This document shows positions 6,215 to 21,888 of a stretch of 21,932 nt of DNA, piece by piece. This DNA comes from a virus. The position numbers and the translations under genes were made by a program. The notes beneath the pieces were generated by a model. That model was not told where the DNA came from. It saw only the letters and a list, made by a program, of their open reading frames with translations, and did not search any database. Each line of letters opens with the position of its first letter. The stretch's first letter is position 1. The stretch lies in IMG/VR virus record IMGVR_UViG_3300010354_000780, positions 1 through 21,932 of that record. The stretch is one strand, 5' to 3'.

Positions 6215-7225
6215 TTAAACGGTTTCTAATTTACCGCAACACACATCACACTGAACTAAACGACCTTCTTGTGTGCTTGTTTTTGTCCAACTTGATTCAA
6301 CACCATTAAACCATTTAATTGCTTCTTCTAATGTAGTGCTATGTAAATTATTGTTGTAAATTAATGGATTTATTTGTTCATTAATGAATCTATGAAATCC
6401 TTTTTTATAAGTTTCTGGTGCAAAACCAAGGTAACAACAAGGATAAACTTTACCATTTGCTGAAATATAAATTGATTTTACTTGTTTTGTAAAACAATTT
6501 AATTTTCTATTTGGGTCATATTCTGGATATGAGTATTTCTTTGTAGAATCATTTTGAAATTGAATTAAACTTTCAATATCTGTATGTCCATTCCATTTAC
6601 CCATTACATGCAATAAATTTCCCTTACGATCAAACACGGGTCCATTGTTTCTTCCATGATCTACTAATTCAAAATCTTTAAATCCATATTCAACGCTTCT
6701 TTGTTTTGCTGATTCAATTTGATGTTTGTTGTGTTCAAATATTATCATTTTCCATACGGCGTATCCACCTTTTGAAATAAATGATTTTGCATTTTCTATA
6801 ATTTTATTGAAATCTGTATCTTGACGATATAAATGATGTGTATCTTCCAAACCATCCAAACAAAAATCAATTTTTATATCTTCCATTTTTCCTAATTCTT
6901 GCCAAAAATCAATATTTCTAGCACTACCATTTGTGCTTATTTGCATAAAAAGGTTTGGTTTAATTTCTTTAAAATATTTGATTATGTCTAAACTTTCTAA
7001 ATTAGAAGTAAAATCTCCAAAATTACCGTTAATTAAAATCATATCTAATTTTTCAATAAAGTTAGGTAGAAATGATTTTTGTATTAGATCTAATGATAAA
7101 CTTGTTTCTTCATATCCACTGTTATACGGAAATCCAAAAACGTTTCTAGGACATCTAGGACAACGTGCATTACATAAACTACTAAATTCCATATGTAAAT
7201 GACGTATTTCTTCATACTTTATCAT
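6215..7225 (-). CDS. Radical SAM enzyme with Cys-rich SPASM-like C-terminus
   Basis: This 336-residue protein contains the radical SAM iron-sulfur motif C18-x3-C22-x2-C25 in 'SSLCNARCPRCPRN'. The radical SAM barrel continues through ISTNGSARNIDFW and IKIDFCLDGL. The C-terminal part holds further cysteines (LNCFTKQ, VYPCCYLGF, VQCDVCCGK) and the phrase 'YISANGKVYPCCY', typical of SPASM or twitch domains that bind auxiliary clusters. SPASM members mostly modify peptides or proteins, so the target may be a protein, but it cannot be read from the sequence. The ATG at 7225 is divergent from the polymerase-like gene at 7300. The gene is AT-rich. Marine phages commonly carry such enzymes without known roles. 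Confidence 0.85.
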   Translation of the reverse strand: MIKYEEIRHLHMEFSSLCNARCPRCPRNVFGFPYNSGYEETSLSLDLIQKSFLPNFIEKLDMILINGNFGDFTSNLESLDIIKYFKEIKPNLFMQISTNGSARNIDFWQELGKMEDIKIDFCLDGLEDTHHLYRQDTDFNKIIENAKSFISKGGYAVWKMIIFEHNKHQIESAKQRSVEYGFKDFELVDHGRNNGPVFDRKGNLLHVMGKWNGHTDIESLIQFQNDSTKKYSYPEYDPNRKLNCFTKQVKSIYISANGKVYPCCYLGFAPETYKKGFHRFINEQINPLIYNNNLHSTTLEEAIKWFNGVESSWTKTSTQEGRLVQCDVCCGKLETV

Positions 7226-7299: not shown

Positions 7300-9012
7300 A
7301 TGAAACTACCAGACAATGCACAGGCACAATGTGAACAGCTATTAAAACAATTTAGACGACAAATACCAGATGATGCGGCATATAGTGACCGACTTGTTGA
7401 AGAAATAGAAATCATACTGGGTTTACGATTTACAGAATACTTCTTACAAATCCGTGAAATATTAGATATGACTGATGACTTGCCACATATGACTCGTGGT
7501 AGTGCTGGCAGTAGTCTTGTATGTTGGGCATTGGGTATTACAGATGTTGATCCTATAAAATGGGATATACCACTATCACGATTTTTAAATCCACACCGTG
7601 ATGACTTACCAGACATAGATATAGATTATCCACATTGGGCACAGAGTATAGTTATGGAACGTATATTCAAACGCTGGCCTGGCAAAAGTGCAAGAATTAG
7701 TAATTATGTAACATTCAAAGAAAAAAGTGCCAAGCGTGAAGCCGCAAGACGGTTAGGTGCTACTGGCAGATTGCCTCGTAACTTCAAATATGATGATCTT
7801 GACATTGACATAGGGGAAGCTATTCGTATTGAAAAGAAGTTACTTGGCAAGAAACGAGCCATCTCTAAACATTGTGGTGGCATACTTGTGTTCAAACACA
7901 ATCTACCTAAAAGTCTTATAAACGCAGACAACCAAATACTGTTAGATAAGCACGAAGTAGAAGACCTTGAACACTTAAAAGTTGATGTGTTAGCCAATCG
8001 TGGGTTAAGTCAACTTTATGAAATAGAACCTAATATGGGTTTAGAAGATTATCCTGATTATGATGAGGATACGATAAGATTACTGTGTAATGGTGATGTG
8101 TTAGGTGTTACACAAGGTGAATCACCAGCAATGCGTAGACTGTTTCGTGCAATACAACCAAAGTCACGCAGTGATTGTGTATTTGCCACAGCACTTATTC
8201 GTCCTGTTGCAACTACTGGAAGACAGAAAGCCAGTTTCTTTCACGATTGGACAGAGAAACGATTAGAAGAAAGTATTGTATATGAAGATGATGCTATCAA
8301 AAAGATAAGCAAACTTATTGGTTGTGATATCTATGAAGCAGATATGTATCGTCGTGCATTTGCAAAAAAGAATGAAGAAAAAGTATATGAGTTTATGCAC
8401 CGTATGGGCACACACCCAAACAAAGGTGCCATTGTAGATGAATTGTATCAACTTGGAAACTTTGGTTTATGCCGTGCCCACGCCGTAAATCTTGGTAGAT
8501 TGATATGGGCATTAGCATACCAAAAAGCACATAATCCAAAAGCATTTTGGGCTGCGTGTCTTAAACATTGCGAAGGTAGTTATCGTCGTTGGGTGTATAA
8601 ATGTGAAGCAAAACGTGCTGGATGGGACTTACGTGATTTAGGATACAATTATAGTTTATTAAATGACCCAATATGGGAATATCGTAAGTATGGTTGGTGG
8701 GGTAATCACGAGTTTCTACCAAATTTTTACTGTGCTAATCAGTATCTAGACAAGTTTGAGTTTGCTGGTCTTGTTGCCAATGGTCGTGTATTCAAAGGTG
8801 AAGGCGGAAAATATATTACATTCTTAACTTTAGGCATAGATAATGGAAAATATATTGACTTGCTTGTTAAAGGTCCAGTAGCATATCATGATTATGATGT
8901 TGTATGTGGTATAGGCAAAGTAAAAACAAGCAACGGTAGCCAATACATAGAGTGTCAAGCAGTTAGGACGTTTAAGTTAGAAAAATATGCAACTAAAAAT
9001 AACTCTGTGTAA
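7300..9012 (+). CDS. PHP-less family C (DnaE-like) DNA polymerase core
   Basis: This 570-residue protein matches bacterial DNA polymerase III alpha from just after the PHP domain. Visible landmarks are TEYFLQIREIL (45-55), TRGSAGSSLVCWALGITDVD (65-84), SRFLNPHRDDLPDIDIDY (93-110) with the catalytic D-x-D-x-D at 105-109, KHCGGILVF (190-198), HLKVDVL with the third Asp at 229, IYEADMYRRAFAKKN (344-358) and RAHAVNLGRLIWALAYQKAH (392-411). Residues about 487-560 look like an OB fold. Palm, thumb and fingers are thus present with all three metal-binding Asp. The PHP domain (about 270 residues in E. coli DnaE) and the tau-binding end are missing, so it is about half the usual length and has no visible proofreading domain. 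The start is ATG 7300 with AAAAGG upstream. It may be a replicative or repair polymerase; activity is unproven. Confidence 0.85.
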   Translation: MKLPDNAQAQCEQLLKQFRRQIPDDAAYSDRLVEEIEIILGLRFTEYFLQIREILDMTDDLPHMTRGSAGSSLVCWALGITDVDPIKWDIPLSRFLNPHRDDLPDIDIDYPHWAQSIVMERIFKRWPGKSARISNYVTFKEKSAKREAARRLGATGRLPRNFKYDDLDIDIGEAIRIEKKLLGKKRAISKHCGGILVFKHNLPKSLINADNQILLDKHEVEDLEHLKVDVLANRGLSQLYEIEPNMGLEDYPDYDEDTIRLLCNGDVLGVTQGESPAMRRLFRAIQPKSRSDCVFATALIRPVATTGRQKASFFHDWTEKRLEESIVYEDDAIKKISKLIGCDIYEADMYRRAFAKKNEEKVYEFMHRMGTHPNKGAIVDELYQLGNFGLCRAHAVNLGRLIWALAYQKAHNPKAFWAACLKHCEGSYRRWVYKCEAKRAGWDLRDLGYNYSLLNDPIWEYRKYGWWGNHEFLPNFYCANQYLDKFEFAGLVANGRVFKGEGGKYITFLTLGIDNGKYIDLLVKGPVAYHDYDVVCGIGKVKTSNGSQYIECQAVRTFKLEKYATKNNSV

Positions 9013-9868
9013 TCCGCAAAATCAAAAAGATGAATATGATTTATTTTTTAATTTAGATGATAACATTCTTGTTAAAAAATGGGCACGTAAATTAGTTACA
9101 GCACAAAAACAGTATTCTATAGATGATCGTAAAAGATTTTATGGATTTAATAGTTTTGAAGAAGAAGTTGTAAAAGCAACAAATTATATTAATGAATGCA
9201 TTACCATTATCAATAATGATAAACCAATAATAGATAGAAAGTTTGATTCAATTTATGATACTGATACCTTAAATTACTTACACCATATATTTGAGATATA
9301 TCACGGTCTATTAGATAAACAAGATCATGATTTTTGGAATAATGCAAAAACAGAAACAAAAATAGCACTTGCCAATTTAAACATTGCAGTTCACAGAGTT
9401 GAAAATGTAATTTATGGTAATAATAAAAGATTTACAATAACTTATTTTGGATTACCAAAAACTGATTTTTTAACAAAAAATGATTATAGTTTTTTTACAA
9501 GAGAATACAAATTTGGAGATATTTTTATAAATTATGTAGAAATTGGAAAAACTATAGAAGACTTATGGCGTGATAAAGATGAATACATTGAACCAGAAGC
9601 ATTTCAACCATTTTGTAGATTTTCTGCAGATTTTACAGTAAAATTTTATGATGAAGATATCAATACTGTAAAAAATATAATGGAATCATGTTCCAAATAT
9701 TTTAATGAAAAGAAAAAATTTTTTAATAGTTTAGGTTATAAAAAATTAGAAAAAAAGTTATTACCAGGATTGCCAAAAATAGGAAGTTTAGTTTATAATA
9801 ATAAACTAGAAGTAATTAAAAATATTGAATCTAGACAAATGATAAAATTAGTTATTTTGTTGCCTTAA
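8987..9868 (+). CDS. Unknown 293-residue protein downstream of the polymerase core
   Basis: This protein is not recognised. It is rich in Lys, Asn, Tyr and Phe, mostly helical in the first 160 residues (YLHHIFEIYHGLL, TKIALANLNIAVHRVENVIY). A more beta-rich part follows (RFTITYFGLP, YKFGDIFINYVEIGKTIEDL, FCRFSADFTVKFYDED). The 'F-I-N-Y-V-E-I-G-K-T ... P-F-C-R-F-S-A-D-F' region looks like a conserved core, and I think relatives exist in marine myophages. ATG 8987 lies 26 bases inside the end of the polymerase-like gene, so the two are probably co-translated. Its end overlaps the helicase gene on the other strand by 17 bases. It is more AT-rich than the polymerase gene. A partner role is possible but unsupported by motifs. 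Confidence 0.65.
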   Translation: MQLKITLCNPQNQKDEYDLFFNLDDNILVKKWARKLVTAQKQYSIDDRKRFYGFNSFEEEVVKATNYINECITIINNDKPIIDRKFDSIYDTDTLNYLHHIFEIYHGLLDKQDHDFWNNAKTETKIALANLNIAVHRVENVIYGNNKRFTITYFGLPKTDFLTKNDYSFFTREYKFGDIFINYVEIGKTIEDLWRDKDEYIEPEAFQPFCRFSADFTVKFYDEDINTVKNIMESCSKYFNEKKKFFNSLGYKKLEKKLLPGLPKIGSLVYNNKLEVIKNIESRQMIKLVILLP

Positions 9869-11258
9869 TATTATTAAGCATTTGTCGCAATACAGTGCTA
9901 TTAACATCTGCTTGTATCTTGCCTGGTTGATCTTCGGGCACAGCATCAGTTGATGGTTTAACATTACTGCCACCCTTAATGCTTGCAAAGATACTGCTAC
10001 TTTGTTTCTTAAATTGTTGATAATCTGGATCTTCTGCAAGGTCACGAATACGCAGACTATCAATATCAAACTCTAACTCAATCTTTTGTCCAACGCCACT
10101 TGACGAACGTGTTTTCATAAGTTGTAGTTGATACTTGCCATGTTCACGCATACTACGGCTTGTAAAGATACCAAATAAGTTATCAGCAGTATTAATCTTG
10201 GAAATACCACCACTAATATGGCTGTGGTCAAACTCAACTTCTTCTACAGATGCACGGTTCAATTGTGACGCCGTAACAAGTAATATATCCATTTCTTTTG
10301 CAAAGTTACGTATTTCTTCACTTACATACTTGTCCTTGACGAACAAATCACTTGGACTTACTTTAGCACTAACTGGCATAAGCAAGTCAAGATAGTCTAT
10401 CATAACAAAATCTACACGACGACCTGTTCTAATTTGTAGTTCTTTGATATATGAACGGACATCGTTAATATTGCTTTGTGCTGGCATATACTTAATTTGC
10501 AATCTACCACTTTTTTTACCAAGCATTTTGACTTTGACTTCAATATCTTCGATGCTTTTGAATATATCACGAGATGGTGTATTAGTAAGCATACCATCAA
10601 TACGCATAGCAGTAAGTTCTTCGCTCAATTCAAGTGTAATATAAACGCCATTAAGACCAGCAAGTATCCAGTTACATGCTATGTTCTGCATAAACAGTGA
10701 CTTACCGCTACCACTGCCACCAGCAAAGATATTCAATTCACCACGATTAAAACCACCAAATAGTTTTTTGTCGAGTGTTACCCAACCACTACTTGTTTGA
10801 CCATTATTGTCCTTAATTTTAGTCAATCGTGCTATAGGGTCTGCAAAGTAATCTGTTCCTAAATCTTTTGTAAGACTAATTTGCACTGCATCTTTAATAA
10901 TCTTTTCTACAGGATCAAAATCACCCTTCTCAAGCATATCTGCGGCTTTAAGAATAGCACGCTCTAATTCTTTTTGTTTGGTAAAACCTTCAAACTCTTC
11001 TAAGAACCAACTTGTATGGTCATCGGTCATACCAGGTATAGACTGAAAACTATTATCCGTTGCCGCATTAATTTGTTCGTGCAGTGGCATAATAGTATGT
11101 TTTTCACAATGTTCTTTGATAAACTTTGCAGCACCTTGCAAACTACGGTCAAAGTTGTTTGGATTGAAAATATTTTGGACACGCACATAACTTTGTGGGT
11201 CTGCCAACATCATTTCAATGAATAGTTTTTGAACTTGGGTATCGTAATTTTTAGACAT
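9852..11258 (-). CDS. 41: Replicative DNA helicase, DnaB-like, T4 gp41 type
   Basis: This 468-residue protein is close in length to T4 gp41 (475). The N-terminal helical domain (about 1-150) precedes a RecA-like ATPase. Walker A is GGSGSGKS (180-187, Lys186). LELSEELTAMRID follows. Walker B is VDFVMIDYLDLL with Asp288. TASQLNRAS is the sensor segment, and KTRSSSGVGQ lies near the arginine-finger end. It would unwind DNA 5' to 3' at the fork together with the gp61-type primase encoded upstream in the same operon. The last 60 residues are a Pro/Asp/Gln-rich tail, possibly for partner contacts. The start is ATG 11258. A weak TATTAT/TATAGT lies upstream in the 43-base gap, so it may also have its own promoter. 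Confidence 0.93.
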   Translation of the reverse strand: MSKNYDTQVQKLFIEMMLADPQSYVRVQNIFNPNNFDRSLQGAAKFIKEHCEKHTIMPLHEQINAATDNSFQSIPGMTDDHTSWFLEEFEGFTKQKELERAILKAADMLEKGDFDPVEKIIKDAVQISLTKDLGTDYFADPIARLTKIKDNNGQTSSGWVTLDKKLFGGFNRGELNIFAGGSGSGKSLFMQNIACNWILAGLNGVYITLELSEELTAMRIDGMLTNTPSRDIFKSIEDIEVKVKMLGKKSGRLQIKYMPAQSNINDVRSYIKELQIRTGRRVDFVMIDYLDLLMPVSAKVSPSDLFVKDKYVSEEIRNFAKEMDILLVTASQLNRASVEEVEFDHSHISGGISKINTADNLFGIFTSRSMREHGKYQLQLMKTRSSSGVGQKIELEFDIDSLRIRDLAEDPDYQQFKKQSSSIFASIKGGSNVKPSTDAVPEDQPGKIQADVNSTVLRQMLNNIKATK

Positions 11259-12118: not shown

Positions 12119-13117
12119 TTACTTAATTTTTTTCATCATTAATTTTATTTTAAGACTATTACTTTGCTGAGATTTAATTATACTTTGCATTGTAAACACA
12201 TGACCATACTTAGCAACTGCATCTGCAACATCTTTTATATTAGGTTCCCATTCTGGAAATGCCACACTCCAACCATATTTTAATGCCGCATAAATCATTT
12301 TTTTGCCAGCTTCATCACGGTCAGGAACTACAATAATATCACGGTCAAGTGTTTCAATAACTTCTGCTTGAACATCATTTATTTCGTTACTACAAATAGC
12401 AATAGCATTAATTGCAACTGCATCTAACAAACCTTCTACTACAATACAAAACTTGGCATTGTGTTGTTGCTTGTCATATCCCCAAACAAGATTACTTGGA
12501 TAGTTACTGAAATACTTAATTTTCTTTTTACCATCTACAAATAATCTACCACTATATCCCATAGGTTTGTTTTGCCAAGTAAATGGAATTAATACACGGT
12601 CACGTAGTGATGCTTGATCTGTCCAGTAGAATTGGTCAATTTTATCACCAAACCCACGACTATCAAGATAATTAATAGCTGCTTCTAAACTATTATAATC
12701 TTCTTCAGTAATATGACCATCATTTAACCAACTTGTTATTGGACGACCAGGACACGGTTCACGTGCTTCATATGTTGGTAATTCACGTTGTTCAATAACG
12801 CCAGATTCTGTAGTTTCTTGACTTATTGCGAATAGCGCAAGACGACCTATTACTTCTTCGTCAAACCCAATCCATACCATCCAACGCCGCATTTTATAAC
12901 TTAAACGACGACCTGGCTGCCAACCTGTAGTAAAATGACAATTAAAACAGTGATAATTCACTCCACCTTCTGGTGTAACGTGAATACCACCACGACCACG
13001 AGTATCAGCATTGTGCCCAAGGTGATGACAGCATGGTGCATTAAAACTTATCCATCCACTTGGTGAAGTTTTACGCTTCCACGGCAAATGTGACAATACT
13101 TGGTCAGTAATTTCCAT
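12119..13117 (-). CDS. 61: DNA primase, T4 gp61 type
   Basis: This 332-residue protein has the primase layout. An N-terminal zinc finger has ligands among C29, C30, H31/H32, C57 and C60 (PCCHHLGH ... YHCFNCHF). A helical linker follows, then a TOPRIM domain with E228 in VVEGLLDAVA and D266/D268 in VVPDRDEAGK. Between them, 'DRVLIPFTW ... GYSGRLF' is typical of bacterial and phage primases. It would make RNA primers for lagging-strand synthesis with the gp41-type helicase encoded downstream. The ATG at 13117 lies 6 bases after a perfect -10 box and has no Shine-Dalgarno sequence, pointing to a leaderless transcript. The C-terminus is a Lys-rich tail (LKIKLMMKKIK). Confidence 0.92.
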   Translation of the reverse strand: MEITDQVLSHLPWKRKTSPSGWISFNAPCCHHLGHNADTRGRGGIHVTPEGGVNYHCFNCHFTTGWQPGRRLSYKMRRWMVWIGFDEEVIGRLALFAISQETTESGVIEQRELPTYEAREPCPGRPITSWLNDGHITEEDYNSLEAAINYLDSRGFGDKIDQFYWTDQASLRDRVLIPFTWQNKPMGYSGRLFVDGKKKIKYFSNYPSNLVWGYDKQQHNAKFCIVVEGLLDAVAINAIAICSNEINDVQAEVIETLDRDIIVVPDRDEAGKKMIYAALKYGWSVAFPEWEPNIKDVADAVAKYGHVFTMQSIIKSQQSNSLKIKLMMKKIK

Positions 13118-13123
13118 TTGGTT

Positions 13124-13152
13124 ATTATATCAAATGTATATTAATTTGTCAA
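13124..13152 (-). promoter_or_regulatory. Perfect-consensus sigma-70 promoter for the primase operon
   Basis: On the minus strand, TTGACA (13147-13152), a 17-base spacer (13130-13146) and TATAAT (13124-13129) are all exact consensus, followed by 6 bases and ATG 13117. Transcription starting about 7 bases after the -10 would begin at the ATG. The -35 box overlaps the stop codon of the structural gene upstream. This is a strong host-RNA-polymerase (early) promoter. Confidence 0.9.
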
Positions 13153-13937
13153 GGACGATAGTAGATATAATTCATAGTGCCACTAACTTGTGAAACCTTG
13201 AATCTTACAGCACGATATTTGCCTTGGAAATTAAAATAGTTTGTTCCACTGACATTTGCACAGTTTGCATAACTTACAGTAGTAAAACTATTGGCATTTA
13301 TAACTGATGCTGCATCCATACTTGCTTGTAGTTGTATGTTACCTGTAAAAGCATTTGATTGATACTGAACAGTTTGATAAACAGCACTGCCACGAACATA
13401 ATTGGCTGTAAGAAAACTACTTGTATATGCGACATTTACATAATTTGTATCGCTGTTATTGCTATATGTAAAACTATTGGCATTATAACTTGGTGTAAAT
13501 TCTGGATATACACCATCTTGTATTCGTGCTTGTCCTTGTGCTTGATAGTTGTCATCACTGTAAACAATTTCTTGTTCACCTTCACCATTAGTTGCAACTA
13601 TGCTGTAATTATATAATCCACCATTTATATTATCTAATAAACTACCTTCAATTAGACAAGTAGCAACACCTGTGCTACTGTAAACAAGATCTAAATTACG
13701 ACTAAACACTAATTCTTTTGTAGTCGGATCAATTAAATTAAATAAAACTGTGCTTTGTAAAAGGCTCACAGGTTTTTGGTCATTATTCTTGATAACGAAC
13801 TTAAATCTATTATCTACACCTTTATAAATTTGTAGAGGCTTTGCGTAAAACAACTGATTCTCCCTGTGTAGCGCAAGGTCACTATTCTTAACAACATTTA
13901 TAATTTGTGGATATAAATAACCTGAAATTTGCTGCAA
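13149..13937 (-). CDS. Virion structural protein, possibly baseplate or fibre (BppU-like N-terminus)
   Basis: This 262-residue protein is beta-rich and full of Asn, Ser, Tyr and Thr. Residues about 40-115 (NRFKFVIKNNDQKPVSL ... GGLYNYSIVATNGEG) look like the immunoglobulin-like N-terminal domain of phage baseplate upper proteins. The pattern is 'F-x-F-x-I ... kP-v-x-L-x-x-x-t-v-x-F-x-l ... G-x-Y-x-Y-x-I'. The C-terminal half (TYSNNSDTNYVNVAYTSSFL ... RAVRFKVSQVSG) resembles a binding or jelly-roll domain. The start is TTG 13937: a stop codon lies immediately upstream in frame and AAAAGG precedes it. An AATAAATA late-promoter-like motif lies 19 bases upstream. The assignment is by composition and weak pattern only. 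Confidence 0.7.
   Translation of the reverse strand: MQQISGYLYPQIINVVKNSDLALHRENQLFYAKPLQIYKGVDNRFKFVIKNNDQKPVSLLQSTVLFNLIDPTTKELVFSRNLDLVYSSTGVATCLIEGSLLDNINGGLYNYSIVATNGEGEQEIVYSDDNYQAQGQARIQDGVYPEFTPSYNANSFTYSNNSDTNYVNVAYTSSFLTANYVRGSAVYQTVQYQSNAFTGNIQLQASMDAASVINANSFTTVSYANCANVSGTNYFNFQGKYRAVRFKVSQVSGTMNYIYYRP
13912..13919 (+). promoter_or_regulatory. Exact TATAAATA on the plus strand, possible late promoter
   Basis: This exact late-promoter consensus faces the plus-strand gene at 13965, 45 bases upstream. It lies inside the start of the minus-strand structural gene, where it encodes Gly-Tyr-Leu-Tyr, so it may be chance in AT-rich coding DNA. Confidence 0.3.
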
Positions 13938-13964: not shown

Positions 13965-14339
13965 ATGAGTTTTTCCCTTGAACAAATGCTTGAACAATAT
14001 CCGTTCTTAAGTTATATAAAATACCCCACCGCCGATTTTATTGGAATTATACAAAATTATGATGGTGATATACTTTCAATGTATGCATTCAATAAATTAA
14101 AGACAGAAGAAGATAAAAAAGGTTTTTTAGAAGCGGCAGAAATATGGTGGTGGGAAAGTAATCGCTTAATACCAATCAATATTTTCCTTAAAAATAGTTG
14201 GAATCAATATCGTTACAGCACAGTAACATTAACAACTAAAGATATTCGTGAGCAATGTGGTCATATTGTTAGTATTGCTAAACTTGCAGAACGCAGAACA
14301 AAACGTAGAGTTGTTCAGTTAGTTAAACGACTCGCATAA
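13965..14339 (+). CDS. Conserved marine T4-like phage protein of unknown function (WWWESNR type)
   Basis: This 124-residue protein has PTADFIGIIQNYDGDILSMY and AAEIWWWESNRLIPINIFLK, followed by a Lys/Arg-rich end (AERRTKRRVVQLVKRLA). The WWWESNR-x-I-P-I-x-I-F-L block is very distinctive, and I recall it in small hypothetical proteins of marine T4-like phages, so it is probably conserved. No function is known to me; the basic C-terminus could bind nucleic acid. I choose ATG 13965 over the TTG at 13929. The TTG reading would place the start inside the promoter, and the peptide from ATG begins the recognisable core. Its end overlaps the mini-DnaE gene on the other strand by 21 bases. Confidence 0.75.
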   Translation: MSFSLEQMLEQYPFLSYIKYPTADFIGIIQNYDGDILSMYAFNKLKTEEDKKGFLEAAEIWWWESNRLIPINIFLKNSWNQYRYSTVTLTTKDIREQCGHIVSIAKLAERRTKRRVVQLVKRLA

Positions 14340-14879
14340 CAGATTCATATGAACCATTACTAATTGTGCATATGAATAAGCGTGTGCTTTCTTAAAATAA
14401 TAACCTTCTGTAGGTTTAATCCATATCTCTTCGTTTATTTCTCGCCATCTTTTTCCGATAAGGTATCGTTTTGATGGGCGAATGATTGCCAATACCATAG
14501 CCAACATATCCATTGTAGTAGGAAGATGTTGTTGCAAGACATCATAATGATTTGAAAGATGAATAAGTTTGGCAACGAAATCACGCTCCTTTAATTTTTC
14601 CCACTGTGGTTCACGTTTACAGAGTTCGTCAAGATGCTCGTTACTGCGAACTTGATTATAAACGTGAACATTCAGTAGGTCAAGTTTCATATAACCTAAA
14701 TCTTCTGCTGTTTCATAATCTATATTAGATAATCCAGATATTGGATTAGCAGGTATTGGATTAACATAAACACCAGTATTGTGTTTTACAATTTCACCAT
14801 CACGGTGTATTGTAGCAGGCACATGTTTTATAAGTTTTAATATGGTTTCACGGTCACCAAAGTCAATATCAATATCCAT
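14319..14879 (-). CDS. Mini family C (DnaE-like) polymerase relative, 186 residues
   Basis: The protein opens directly on a catalytic-type motif, MDIDIDFGD (Asp 2, 4, 6). It then shows KHNTGVYVNPIP (compare KHAGGVVIAP in DnaE), YMKLDLLN with Asp67 where DnaE has its third metal-binding Asp, LAMVLAIIRPSKR (compare the ALYRPGP region) and YFKKAHAYSYAQLVMVHMNL (compare the FNKSHAAAYA region). It therefore keeps the order of the DnaE palm and fingers landmarks in about half the usual space and has no PHP or OB domain. The ATG at 14879 overlaps the stop of the zinc-finger gene as TAATG, so both are translated in step. It may be a non-catalytic or accessory derivative, or half of a two-subunit enzyme; activity cannot be judged. 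A longer reading from TTG 14885 is less likely. Confidence 0.8.
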   Translation of the reverse strand: MDIDIDFGDRETILKLIKHVPATIHRDGEIVKHNTGVYVNPIPANPISGLSNIDYETAEDLGYMKLDLLNVHVYNQVRSNEHLDELCKREPQWEKLKERDFVAKLIHLSNHYDVLQQHLPTTMDMLAMVLAIIRPSKRYLIGKRWREINEEIWIKPTEGYYFKKAHAYSYAQLVMVHMNLLCESFN

Positions 14880-15574
14880 TAGCAACCAGCCTCACTCAAT
14901 ATATGCCTTGTCATTTCAGTATCAGCAGGATAATCACGCAGATGCCGTTCCCAAAATGGTGGGTCAATAAAGGCTATTATAATCTCTAATTGATCTTCTG
15001 TCAACTGTGAAAGTTTTTCAGTGCCATTGTCACAACAATATATTACCCACGGACTTATGCGACCATTTTGTATGTGTTGTATAAGTCGATTTGGACTAAT
15101 ATGTGTGAAATATTCATTAAATTGATATTGTGGAAACTCTTCGCTCCACTTTTGCATTGTTACAATACTACGTTCTAATGCGTCTGTAGCACTTTCGTGT
15201 CGTAATAAATGAAATAGATATTCGCTGTATATTGCATCACGGCACCAATGGTCAATCTTAAAATTATTCTTAAGAACATAATCAGTAAATTGATCTACAT
15301 TAATAGCACTTATAGCAACACAGTGTCTTCCAAATTTTACAAAAGCACCATATAGTGAACTTTGGCAAAATTCTTCATAGGTTTTAAGTTTGGCACTGCC
15401 TTGTGTCAATTCATAGAATCGCAACCAAGCATTGAAACCAATAACAACACCTTTTTCATTTTTCTGCAATTCACGGCGTTTTGGTTCACACTGATGCACA
15501 TTCAGTGTGCTTTCACGACTGAATTTAACACCACAATATTTGCATTGATATTCTGTATCAGCAATTGGTTTCAT
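14879..15574 (-). CDS. Zinc-finger protein coupled to the mini-DnaE protein
   Basis: This 231-residue protein has an N-terminal zinc finger, C11-x2-C14-x12-H27-x-C29 (YQCKYCGVKFSRESTLNVHQC), followed by a basic stretch (PKRRELQK). The rest is helical, with FNAWLRFYELTQGSAKLKTY, NFKIDHWCRDAIYSEYL, GRISPWVIYCCDNG and PPFWERHLRDYPADTEM. I recall close relatives of the whole protein in T4-like cyanophages, directly before the same small DnaE-like gene. This suggests a conserved two-gene module. The finger probably binds nucleic acid or a protein partner. I choose ATG 15574, because the finger begins shortly after it and the longer reading only extends into the deacetylase gene. The gene overlaps the upstream deacetylase gene by 17 bases. 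Confidence 0.78.
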   Translation of the reverse strand: MKPIADTEYQCKYCGVKFSRESTLNVHQCEPKRRELQKNEKGVVIGFNAWLRFYELTQGSAKLKTYEEFCQSSLYGAFVKFGRHCVAISAINVDQFTDYVLKNNFKIDHWCRDAIYSEYLFHLLRHESATDALERSIVTMQKWSEEFPQYQFNEYFTHISPNRLIQHIQNGRISPWVIYCCDNGTEKLSQLTEDQLEIIIAFIDPPFWERHLRDYPADTEMTRHILSEAGC

Positions 15575-16094
15575 GTAATCTATGTTGTGCCTCACCAGTA
15601 ATATAATACTTGTAAGTGCTGTTGTCAAATCCTAAAACAACATCTTTATGTAGCGGCAGTTCATCTATATTAAATGGTTCTATGCGAATAATTTCATTGT
15701 AATATTGTGGAAAATTACCAAAATAAACTTTTGGTATTAGTAAATCTTTTACACAACTATTAATAAACTTATGATGTAAGTGTCCATACTCACCATGATG
15801 GTTATGTGTTAATAACAAATCAAAGTTAAATGGCACTTTTTTGCAGAAATCAGCTGCATCTATTTCACTGAATCCCAATTCACCACGCTGTACAGTATTC
15901 CAATCGTCATTAAATTCAGCGTGAATAGTTTTTATATTACGTTTATTCCAGAATTTTTGTAACTCAATACTGCGTTCATCATTTTCTTTATGTGTGAGAT
16001 AGGCAATAGTCCATTCAAACGGATATTTGTTTATAAATCCATAACCAAAAATTACACAATCATCAGGGTGAGCAACAAGACATAATGCTTTCAT
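15558..16094 (-). CDS. PIG-L/LmbE-family N-acetylglucosamine-type deacetylase
   Basis: This 178-residue protein belongs to the zinc-dependent PIG-L/LmbE family, which removes the N-acetyl group from GlcNAc-linked compounds. Visible motifs are the N-terminal 'CLVAHPDDCVIFGYG' (His9, Asp11, Asp12) and 'THNHHGEYGHLHHKFIN' (His105 and His108 as metal ligands). The middle contains the usual AYLTHKENDERSIELQKFW segment. Family members act on sugars in mycothiol, bacillithiol, GPI-anchor and antibiotic pathways; the substrate here is unknown. The ATG at 16094 overlaps the stop of the glycosyltransferase-like gene as ATGA. That coupling suggests the two enzymes act in sequence on one glycan or glycoside. 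It is slightly short for the family (usually 220 or more residues). Confidence 0.85.
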   Translation of the reverse strand: MKALCLVAHPDDCVIFGYGFINKYPFEWTIAYLTHKENDERSIELQKFWNKRNIKTIHAEFNDDWNTVQRGELGFSEIDAADFCKKVPFNFDLLLTHNHHGEYGHLHHKFINSCVKDLLIPKVYFGNFPQYYNEIIRIEPFNIDELPLHKDVVLGFDNSTYKYYITGEAQHRLHETNC

Positions 16095-16930
16095 TTTATA
16101 TAATCGTTCCATCTATTTTGTTGTTCATCAGATAATAAATTATATGCACGTGGATGAATACTTATAGTAAATGGTTGTATGGTTTCCACTTCTGTCATCC
16201 AATTATCAAAATTATCTACTTCCCAATCAGCAAGATTTCGTACTTGTATTTCTTGTTTACCTGAATATAGATCTTCAAATAAACCAGGTATGCTACTAAC
16301 ATATGCACTGTAGCAAAGAAATTCTGTAATGCCACGTGTTTGTGTATCAAATTTGCTTGGAAATTGACAATAGGTATGAAACCATTCTACAAAATCTGGT
16401 TCCTCATAAACCATTGCTCTCATAGTTGGAACGTGTGCAAGAAAAGGAACACCAGCAGGACTTATCCACTTAAAATCTTTAATATCGTATTTGTTTTTTA
16501 GAAATTCTAATCCAGTTTGCCAATGTGGACTGTTACATGGCCAATTTGCAAATCGTCCACGTTCACCATTAAAAATTAAATCAGTTCTATAATCTTGGTT
16601 TAATAATGTTTTTGCATCAAATATAAAACACCATTCGCTTTCAGCAATACTGCAAGTTCCTAATATTTTACAAACTTGTTGTGTGTACCAACCTTTTAAA
16701 TTAGGTGGCGGATAATACCCAAGTTCATTGCGATGAATGACACGAATGCTATCCTTAAACCATCCCCACCACCCTACATTAATATCAGTGGTTTGCAAAG
16801 TATCATCATTTAATACAACAATAATATTATTCACGTGTGGAAATCTTAAATGATAATTAAATCTTTCTGCTTGTTTTTTAAGCAATTCTAACTCATCACG
16901 ATAAACAACAGTAAGAAAGTCTATACTCAT
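16091..16930 (-). CDS. Glycosyltransferase-like protein (DUF6492-type)
   Basis: This 279-residue protein starts IDFLTVVYRDELELLKKQAE and continues with NNIIVVLNDD, GWYTQQVCKILG and WCFIFDAKTLL. This resembles the GT-A-like 'h-h-T-x-x-Y-x-x-D ... W-x-x-Q-Q-x-x-K ... h-h-h-D-x-D' layout of DUF6492-type putative glycosyltransferases. Here the usual D-x-D is D105-A-K107, so metal dependence may be altered. The second half has conserved-looking aromatics (SPHWQTGLEFL, TRGITEFLCYSAYV). It would move a sugar to an unknown acceptor, such as DNA, the cell surface or a small molecule. It is coupled by ATGA to the 71-residue gene before it and to the deacetylase after it. The function is inferred from motif order. 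Confidence 0.72.
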   Translation of the reverse strand: MSIDFLTVVYRDELELLKKQAERFNYHLRFPHVNNIIVVLNDDTLQTTDINVGWWGWFKDSIRVIHRNELGYYPPPNLKGWYTQQVCKILGTCSIAESEWCFIFDAKTLLNQDYRTDLIFNGERGRFANWPCNSPHWQTGLEFLKNKYDIKDFKWISPAGVPFLAHVPTMRAMVYEEPDFVEWFHTYCQFPSKFDTQTRGITEFLCYSAYVSSIPGLFEDLYSGKQEIQVRNLADWEVDNFDNWMTEVETIQPFTISIHPRAYNLLSDEQQNRWNDYIK

Positions 16931-19682: not shown

Positions 19683-20449
19683 TGTCTTTCCTTAACAAAA
19701 TTGTAGTATAGTTCTGCGATGGCAACTTGACCATCGGGATGTGTATGATAACCAGGATCTGGTCCTGTTAATGGATGGCTATCACAAAAAGCACCAAGTG
19801 CAAATTTTGGTGGTGCAAAATATTTTTGTAAAAACTGTGGTGGGAAGTCTGCACCCCAACCTTTACCGTGAATATATGTATTCCATCCATTAAACAAAAA
19901 AGGTATTTTTAGATAATCTAATTTCCATAATCCACTGAATAAAACCCAATTATCAACTTGACGTTTCCAATGTGCATCATATAAGAATGCAGCATAGCCT
20001 TCCATTGCTATACGAGTAGGTTTATCTACTTTTGCCAAACGATAATTGTGATCATAATTTTCAATAACACTAAACATGGTCTCACCTATCATACGATAGG
20101 GATGTGCGTCACCATAATTAAAATTCTTTAATCCATCTTCCCAAATATAACCATTGCGGTTTTCACGATGTGCACTATGATTGGGACTACCATCTTCTAT
20201 TTTTAAAAATTTTTCAACTGGAAACTCAATACGATCTTCTGTAGTGCTTGCAATGAATAACCAATCCGCACCATCTTTTATTGCTTCATCAATTTGTAAT
20301 CGGATTACATTATTACCAATACCTTGTCGTGCATAATTTTTAAGTTTTGCACCAAGTTTAGCAGCAAGTATTTCACTCCAATGTGTTCCACTGTATTCAG
20401 GCAAATGACTGACTGCACTAAAACTACAACCACACACTGCTATCTTCAT
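19679..20449 (-). CDS. SGNH-hydrolase-like protein (second of two)
   Basis: This 256-residue protein starts MKIAVCGCSFSAVSHLPEYS, where G-C-S-F-S (7-11) replaces the usual G-D-S of block I. NYARQGIGNNVIRLQIDEAI supplies a block II-like Gly and Asn. DWLFIASTTEDRIEF is the block III region. PGYHTHPDGQVAIAEL near the end provides His235/His237 with the 'H-P-x-G-x-x-x-x-A' form of block V. I recall proteins of this GCSFS type in many marine phages. The likely activity is an esterase or acyl hydrolase, but the substituted Asp means catalysis is uncertain. Its ATG at 20449 overlaps the uvsW stop as ATGA. Confidence 0.72.
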   Translation of the reverse strand: MKIAVCGCSFSAVSHLPEYSGTHWSEILAAKLGAKLKNYARQGIGNNVIRLQIDEAIKDGADWLFIASTTEDRIEFPVEKFLKIEDGSPNHSAHRENRNGYIWEDGLKNFNYGDAHPYRMIGETMFSVIENYDHNYRLAKVDKPTRIAMEGYAAFLYDAHWKRQVDNWVLFSGLWKLDYLKIPFLFNGWNTYIHGKGWGADFPPQFLQKYFAPPKFALGAFCDSHPLTGPDPGYHTHPDGQVAIAELYYNFVKERQ

Positions 20450-21888
20450 TTGTAATTACTCTTTTCTTGCGTAAACGGATACTTGGCCTCTTTATAAAAT
20501 GCTTTGCGTTTTGTTAGGTGACGTTTTGCAAAATTACAGTCAGCAGTTATATCCCATATCTGGACAAAATCCTTGTCTTCTGCTTTGCGGATTCCTCGTC
20601 CGATACTTTGGATGACACGAACAAAACTTTTACCAGGCTCAATAAGCACAAGATTGAAAATGCGAGGGATATTAATACCAACGGCTGCAACGCCGTAAGT
20701 AGCCACGATAATCTTATCACTAACGCCCGCAACTTCATCATAATGTTCTTTGCGATCCACAACTTTCATATCACCATGAACGAATACACTGTTTGGTAAT
20801 CGTGCAACTAACTCATCACCACATTCACGACGATCAACAAGCACAAGTGTATTACCAGTTTTAATAATTTCACTAATCATACTTGCAAGGTGATCTAATC
20901 GTGTACTGTCAGTAGTAAGATATTTAAGTTCTGCTTGATAGTTTTTGAACTGTGCATGTTCAACTGTTTGCACAATATTAACATGACACTCACTTAACAC
21001 ACCACGTTCTTGTAATTCAGACGCACTTAACTGTCCAAACACTTGACCAATTGAAACCAATAATGCAACTTGTTCAAATTTTTCTTTTGGAATTGTTCCT
21101 GTTAAACCCCAACGAATTGGCACATGTGCAAACTCATCAGTAAGCATTGCTTTAAGAACTTCTGCTTTTGCTTGATGCACTTCATCTACAATTAATGCAG
21201 TTACATTAACCATAGACAACCATTCTTTACTGTTTTTATTTGTTTTATATAAACTGTTTAGACTTTGCCATGTGCAGATAGTATGTGTTCGTCCAAGTTC
21301 TTTACGGTCACCAAAGTAAACACCAACATCTAAACCAAGATTGCGATAATCTACTTCTGTTTGTGTAACAAGACTTTTATTTGGAACAATAACAATAGTG
21401 CGTCCATACTTTTCTACACTATGTGATAGTGCGGCAGTCATAATTGTTTTACCAGCACCAGTTGCTACTTCTTGTATGCCTTGTGGATTTGCAAGAAAGT
21501 TATTGATAATTTCTACTTGATAATCACGAAGGACTATTGGTTGTCCTTCTTGTGGATGTGCCTTTGGCCAAACTTTATTAGCAAATGTATTTTCTGTAAT
21601 AGCATCAAATGTAAATTCTTGACGATTAGTTCGTTCATCTTCTAATTCAAAATCCCAATTGCGATCTTGTAACCATTCTATAATTTCTGGTAGAAGATTT
21701 ATGTAAGTAGAACCACCAAGTTGGAAGTATGGAACTTTACCGTCCCATCTTCCTAATTTTACACTTGGTAAATGTCGTGCATAAGGAACTTCATATTTGA
21801 ACTTAGCCACAAGTCTGCGGCGAGTATCAACATCAAGTCCTTCTATTTTGCAATTGACCTCATTACGAATAACAATTTTACATAACAT
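20446..21888 (-). CDS. uvsW: UvsW-type DNA/RNA helicase
   Basis: This 480-residue superfamily 2 helicase is close in length to T4 UvsW (about 500 residues). Residues 1-95 form the UvsW-type N-terminal DNA-binding domain (VPYARHLPSVKLGRWDGKVP). The core follows: the Q-like LRDYQVE, motif I ATGAGKT (142-148), motif II DEVH (235-238), motif III GLTGT (261-265), HGDMKVVDR, motif V ATYGVAAVGIN (396-406) and motif VI QSIGRGIRK (427-435). In T4, UvsW remodels forks, unwinds R-loops to end origin replication, and promotes branch migration in recombination. It is the first gene of a twelve-gene chain on this strand. The ATG at 21888 lacks a Shine-Dalgarno sequence and lies 7 bases after a -10-like box. 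Confidence 0.95.
   Translation of the reverse strand: MLCKIVIRNEVNCKIEGLDVDTRRRLVAKFKYEVPYARHLPSVKLGRWDGKVPYFQLGGSTYINLLPEIIEWLQDRNWDFELEDERTNRQEFTFDAITENTFANKVWPKAHPQEGQPIVLRDYQVEIINNFLANPQGIQEVATGAGKTIMTAALSHSVEKYGRTIVIVPNKSLVTQTEVDYRNLGLDVGVYFGDRKELGRTHTICTWQSLNSLYKTNKNSKEWLSMVNVTALIVDEVHQAKAEVLKAMLTDEFAHVPIRWGLTGTIPKEKFEQVALLVSIGQVFGQLSASELQERGVLSECHVNIVQTVEHAQFKNYQAELKYLTTDSTRLDHLASMISEIIKTGNTLVLVDRRECGDELVARLPNSVFVHGDMKVVDRKEHYDEVAGVSDKIIVATYGVAAVGINIPRIFNLVLIEPGKSFVRVIQSIGRGIRKAEDKDFVQIWDITADCNFAKRHLTKRKAFYKEAKYPFTQEKSNYK

Follow-up and report, generated by a model that had tools for sequence, protein, structure and literature searches.

The closest described system is the phage-specific minimal form of the DNA polymerase III α subunit (Pol III α) reported by Iyer et al. 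2021 (PMC7824862), which in the group 2.2 jumbo phages is made up of two standalone proteins, the halves coming from distantly located genes and occurring alongside a family-B polymerase. These authors suggest that the tasks of the split Pol III α may include repair or work on one strand. Their paper also names a standalone zinc ribbon of the primase type, and its zinc-related passages mention no finger companion of the polymerase. For the RaK2-like phage CBB, the relevant passages of the corresponding paper note only a truncated N-terminal piece of 172 aa and give gp59, gp62 and gp45 as missing. The initial annotation of the locus described here regarded a zinc-finger protein (ZnF) and a very small DnaE-like protein (mini-DnaE) as the best candidate there for an undescribed system. 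The polymerase part of that proposal was already in print in 2021, as set out above, while the ZnF companion is uncharacterized, no other account of it being found in the parts of the literature that were covered.

The window, the whole stretch of DNA that was analysed, is a virus record of 21,932 bases that represents a genome fragment, its kin being jumbo phages (RaK2, 121Q, PA5oct and Atu_ph07). The open reading frames (ORFs) and the sequence bear out the gene positions, the minus strand and the one-base TAATG overlap originally assigned to the two genes. Their positions, and those of the neighbouring genes and conserved motifs, are listed in Table 1.

Table 1. Genes and motifs in and around the ZnF/mini-DnaE locus (positions are those of the window).
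Feature	Position	Strand	Details
Second, single-chain DnaE-like polymerase	7300..9012	+	570 aa, no PHP; PF07733 E 9e-40, PF17657 E 1.7e-14
DnaB/gp41-type replicative helicase, same cluster	9852..11258	-	phrog_19 E 1.8e-65
DNA primase, same cluster	12119..13117	-	phrog_47 E 4e-32; same strand in 121 loci
Neighbouring gene	13149..13937	-	PA5oct and RaK2 homologues annotated as structural proteins
Convergent small gene, phrog_11637	13965..14339	+	124 aa; E 1.3e-30; 21-nt overlap with the 3' end of mini-DnaE
mini-DnaE gene	14319..14879	-	186 aa, ATG start; phrog_11778 E 2.6e-60; C-terminal half of split minimal Pol III α
H166-x3-Y170 finger motif of mini-DnaE	14370..14384	-	DnaE KSHSAAYA stretch; invariant
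R134-P135 finger motif of mini-DnaE	14475..14480	-	DnaE RPGP stretch; invariant; hhalign
K65-x-D67 of mini-DnaE	14679..14687	-	Equivalent of E. coli K553/D555, third catalytic Asp; hhalign
D2-x-D4-x-D6 of mini-DnaE	14862..14876	-	Equivalent of E. coli DnaE D401/D403
TAATG, ZnF stop/mini-DnaE start	14877..14881	-	One base in common; minus strand reads TGC-TAATG-GAT
ZnF protein gene	14879..15574	-	231 aa, ATG start; phrog_11058 E 4.7e-56; C2HC finger and ~190-aa helical body
Zinc finger C11-x2-C14-x12-H27-x-C29	15488..15544	-	Codons 11-29; invariant in aligned relatives
UvsW-type DNA helicase	20446..21888	-	Upstream end of the cluster; phrog_16 E 3e-71; same strand, upstream in 100 loci

Profile searches place mini-DnaE in phrog_11778, a phage-only family annotated as ‘DNA polymerase’, and a Pfam search of the protein returned no genuine match. 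Alignment by hhalign pairs residues 31-137 with E. coli DnaE 509-642, and the first residues of the protein form the DIDID strand, the site of the first two of the three catalytic aspartates in DnaE. The AF2 model (pLDDT 95.7) aligns over its whole length with solved structures of Pol III α and PolC, covering residues ~400-780 of the E. coli chains with Z scores of 7.1-8.9; of the listed Pol III and PolC chains, 3e0d_A matches best (Z 9.6), and unrelated chains score at Z ≤3.3. D2, D4 and D6 are invariant in 38/38 and 57/57 aligned relatives, as are K65, D67, R134-P135 and H166-x3-Y170. The DxDxD motif is present in 162 of 164 mini-DnaEs, the remaining two being cut by contig ends, and relatives down to 32% identity retain the catalytic aspartates together with the K553 equivalent. 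Mini-DnaE, which contains both catalytic segments and the finger core and starts at the DxDxD strand, is the C-terminal half of a split minimal Pol III α, consisting of the Asp triad and finger core and equivalent to E. coli α ~400-780 minus the thumb. Compared with bacterial DnaE (E. coli Pol III α; 2hnh/4jom), the likeness resides in the half-palm and finger core with their catalytic residues, whereas the phage protein comprises 186 aa against 1160 and lacks the PHP domain, the first (GS, nucleotide-binding) palm half, the thumb, the OB domain, the tail and, in general, all that follows the finger core. The initial description of mini-DnaE as a protein without DNA-contacting domains is thus accurate for the PHP, thumb, OB and tail regions, but overlooks the finger core, which is kept.

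The other half of the polymerase is a separate protein of ~175 aa, the N piece (phrog_11127), which carries the GRGS nucleotide-binding motif. Of the ‘split polymerase-like complex’ proposed earlier, the involvement of a split polymerase therefore stands, but the partner of mini-DnaE in it is the N piece and not ZnF. In hhalign alignments the N piece covers E. coli DnaE 322-393, and the two halves meet just before D401, the thumb region being missing. The C terminus of the protein lies 33-34 residues from the GRGS motif in 12/12 N pieces, and this constant distance indicates that the split sits in one loop. The N piece is encoded in 8/8 jumbo phage records, in which PF07733 matches only that piece, and also in Alishewanella phage Slickus01 and in G001, a 338-kb close relative of the window whose mini-DnaE is 87% identical to that described here. 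It is not present in the 21.9-kb window fragment, where a profile match at 7489-7587 falls inside the single-chain DnaE. All nine of the records surveyed for accompanying polymerases (G001 and the eight phage records) encode a T4-type family-B DNA polymerase, and none of them a family-A polymerase above cut-off.

The placement of the N piece varies. In G001 it is located at contig positions 257444-257866, ~227 kb from mini-DnaE on the linear contig, and it is likewise distant from mini-DnaE in RaK2 and 121Q. By contrast, in XacN1, RAS14, CM1 and Slickus01 the N piece, ZnF and mini-DnaE lie on one strand within ~12-15 kb, with ZnF (in a diverged form in Slickus01) between the two halves, and in XacN1 and Slickus01 this cluster also includes an annotated clamp-loader gene. 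These four records, in which both halves belong to one cluster, differ from the distant genes described by Iyer et al. (PMC7824862). In Slickus01 (OQ508957), a genome of 141 kb encodes the N piece and mini-DnaE along with a finger protein of diverged sequence, showing that the gene set is not limited to jumbo genomes. The finger protein of this phage, encoded two genes upstream of mini-DnaE, is assigned as ZnF by position and finger only, the profile matches being at E 0.025 and 0.051.

A further difference from the split Pol III α of Iyer et al. (PMC7824862) is that the clade of the window has a single-chain DnaE in addition. This gene is outside the ZnF/mini-DnaE pair and has the opposite orientation to the replication cluster, and its product has intact GS, DIDID and KxD motifs. 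Homologues with 94-95% identity occur in three relatives, including G001, and the gene was found in 12/164 loci (one a short fragment) and in 0/8 isolated jumbo phages. With its homologue in G001, family-B, split family-C and single-chain family-C polymerases are encoded in one genome. The 484-kb uncultured phage LR756508.1 also encodes a single-chain DnaE (37.5% identity to that of the window), the only gene in this record that the N-piece profile matches. Two families of ~460-aa phage DnaEs, phrog_7513 and phrog_13169, match the 570-aa protein only near their C termini, close to where the split before DIDID falls, and may represent additional cases of split DnaEs among phages.

ZnF matches phrog_11058, a phage-only family of unknown function, over residues 4-230, a full-length profile match that includes the C2HC finger. 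It is a plain member of the family, with the same gene order as RaK2 ORF122, 121Q gp14 and PA5oct gp265. Pfam recognizes the finger alone (zf-C2H2, E 2e-4, under the curated cut-off). The four ligands named in the initial annotation, C11, C14, H27 and C29, are exact and are invariant in 38/38 and 55/55 aligned relatives. All but two of the ZnF ORFs (144/146) contain the complete C-x2-C-x12-H-x-C motif, and the two exceptions are truncated at a contig end. The basic stretch behind the finger is also conserved (K32, R34). The AF2 model (pLDDT 95.1) displays an all-helical body that follows a β-hairpin-helix finger. The invariance of the finger, the confident predicted fold and the co-occurrence with mini-DnaE are new for phrog_11058. 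A pseudogene or chance ORF is ruled out for both ZnF and mini-DnaE by their conservation. The view that ZnF is the primase-type standalone zinc ribbon was rejected, as the finger is of the C2H2 type by profile and the window contains a separate primase gene.

Structural searches with the ZnF model gave weak matches. Of the 12 chains listed at Z ≥2, the helicase loader lambda P has the top rank (Z 4.2), and T4 gp59 comes in at rank 3 (Z 3.4). The gp59 match superimposes ZnF 40-126 on gp59 14-106 (84 residues, rmsd 3.8), and scores of Z 3-4 possibly reflect just a common helical arrangement. Foldseek found nothing in the PDB at E ≤0.001 (best 1.4). T4 gp59 is not known to have a zinc finger, and its sequence contains none. 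In BFVD the top match (E 2.5e-16) is a viral protein of 293 aa that most likely belongs to the ZnF family, followed by a gp59 at E 0.22. T4 gp59 (PDB 1c1k) and ZnF are alike in size, in their all-helical make-up and in their setting near a gp41-type helicase, and display weak collinear similarity; however, ZnF has the added finger and the sequence match is not significant.

That ZnF is genuinely homologous to T4 gp59, with a finger added, is conceivable but doubtful; gp59 is among the proteins that the CBB paper gives as missing. Besides the structural match, a profile alignment spans 96 columns of the following half of the protein (E 0.015) and, in a comparison with 40 block shuffles, takes rank 2 of 41. 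Among 27 local families the best partner of gp59 is the ZnF family (24.6 versus 21.1 for the next), and the median score of the ZnF ORFs to the gp59 HMM is above 30 block shuffles and one reversal. The signal at the sequence level is, however, neither significant nor reciprocal. Deep profile-profile comparisons of ZnF and gp59 gave E 0.013-0.017, but a decoy family scored higher against the ZnF profile (23.0 versus 22.1), against which gp59 ranks 180 among 205 T4 ORFs. A narrow gp59 profile matched ZnF at E 0.52, and wider profiles at E 0.014 and 0.0047, depending on direction. In the gp59 HMM searches, all controls were surpassed in three measures only (median score, best score and top-100 count). 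The number of ZnF ORFs in the top 50 is not significant, being 23 for real gp59 but 28 and 25 for two of the 30 shuffles, and 21 for a third. No gp59 family appears among the Pfam or PHROG matches of the window ZnF at E ≤1, searches with PF08993 and phrog_269 do not match the ZnF gene, and phrog_11058 does not match gp59; by sequence, ZnF does not belong to gp59 (PF08993/PF08994, phrog_269). A canonical gp59 above the Pfam cut-off was detected in none of 10 non-T4 records, the T4 positive control scoring 2e-55. As the sequence tests are mixed, gp59 membership is not claimed for ZnF.

The distribution of the two genes bears on how closely they are tied. A tblastn search over 50,697 phage records identified ZnF in 61 and mini-DnaE in 63, and the 60 records listed for ZnF are identical to the 60 listed for mini-DnaE. 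These are jumbo phages of proteobacteria, or genome parts of such phages (RaK2, 121Q/PBECO4, PA5oct, CBB, GAP32, Atu_ph07, Phosso, SCTP-2, XacN1 and CM1), and the further mini-DnaE records include Slickus01. The suggestion that ZnF is a companion in T4-like cyanophages was rejected, as cyanophages are absent from the ZnF records listed (60 of 61), and the ZnF family profile had no match at E ≤10 in the cyanophage genomes S-PRM1, P-SSM2 and ACG-2014a.

Gene order was compared in 164 loci (80 and 75 new contig loci, eight phage loci and the window), many of which are near-identical and not independent. The contigs, from metagenomic viral sequences, were drawn from the best 80 of 151 relatives and then the best 80 of 556, with flanks of ≤10 kb, larger gaps being beyond view. 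Mini-DnaE is present in 164/164 loci and ZnF in 146, where it is upstream and on the same strand in every case (146/146). The two genes are separated by ≤20 nt in 22 loci, 21-500 nt in 66, 501-2000 nt in 25 and >2 kb in 33, and thus lie >20 nt apart in 124/146 loci, with a maximum of 10.9 kb. Of the 18 loci without ZnF, 17 have <3.7 kb upstream, and one has 9.0 kb and still no ZnF. An opposite-strand gene follows mini-DnaE in 157/157 loci with ≥400 b downstream (median gap -17), making the convergent phrog_11637 gene the tightest and most conserved neighbour of mini-DnaE. ZnF and mini-DnaE stand between the UvsW gene and the primase and helicase genes. The variation in the ZnF/mini-DnaE gap, together with the tighter linkage of the convergent gene, shows that the pair is part of a conserved replication cluster (UvsW, ZnF, mini-DnaE, convergent gene, structural gene, primase and helicase) rather than a two-gene module. 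The tight coupling put forward in the initial annotation, for which homologues regularly found apart would count as contrary evidence, is therefore abandoned, whereas the co-occurrence of the two genes is upheld by the identical listed records. ZnF is a real and constant companion of mini-DnaE, and the TAATG overlap is a local detail. Three minus-strand genes whose matches fall below the Pfam cut-offs are also located in and around the cluster: a PIG-L-like deacetylase gene (15558-16112), a DUF6492-like gene (16091-16930) and a radical SAM/SPASM-like gene (6215-7225).

The direct idea behind the initial annotation, that the finger supplies what mini-DnaE lacks, survives only as a three-part enzyme, in which the N piece, mini-DnaE and ZnF would be subunits of one protein complex, the finger and basic stretch replacing the thumb, PHP domain and tail in holding DNA. 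This is unlikely. The missing thumb of mini-DnaE, the finding that all but one of the phage records listed for the other two proteins also contain the N piece (59/60), the position of ZnF between the halves in XacN1, RAS14, CM1 and Slickus01, and the adjoining or overlapping genes in the minority of loci are all consistent with such an enzyme. However, linkage is equal across the whole replication cluster and tighter still for the convergent gene, ZnF and mini-DnaE are mostly separated by other sequence, and no DnaE thumb or other part of a polymerase occurs among the fold matches of the ZnF body, although such an absence is weak proof. A dispersed family-C enzyme, with ZnF as a helical C2HC-finger subunit in place of the thumb and further DNA-holding domains, that would serve alongside a T4-type polymerase as a second replicase in a large jumbo clade, and of which at least one 141-kb phage would have a diverged set, is distinctly improbable. 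That the split Pol III α is a former polymerase whose halves now clamp the fork in a structural or regulatory role is very improbable, for despite the loss of the thumb, PHP, OB and clamp-binding parts and the family-B replicase in 9/9 records, no variation is seen in the three catalytic aspartates or in the equivalent of K553, and GRGS is present in 12/12 N pieces.

The reading that we consider probable is that mini-DnaE and the N piece constitute a split family-C polymerase and that ZnF is a separate accessory of the replication fork. In this minimal family-C polymerase, mini-DnaE would be the half that binds metal and template, and we infer that it reassembles with the N piece into one nucleotidyltransferase active site. 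We adopt the suggestion of Iyer et al. (PMC7824862) that the split enzyme may work beside the T4-type family-B replicase, with repair or one strand as possible tasks. ZnF, with a putative DNA-binding C2HC finger on its helical body, would bring the helicase or the polymerase to the fork, and in recruiting replication proteins may be likened to lambda P, T4 gp59 and other helicase loaders. It is more likely a helper at the replication fork than the part that completes the polymerase, and a role like that of a loader or recruiter is preferred with modest confidence.

These data correct the earlier lead in that the active site of mini-DnaE would need the N piece and not the zinc finger. A polymerase palm that is naturally divided at one exact loop also offers a way to consider the origin of family-C polymerases. 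ZnF emerges as a third player for testing, in phages in which the passages on CBB report the helicase loader as missing. If ZnF proves to be a loader or a polymerase subunit, it would close a gap already known in the replication apparatus of RaK2-like phages.
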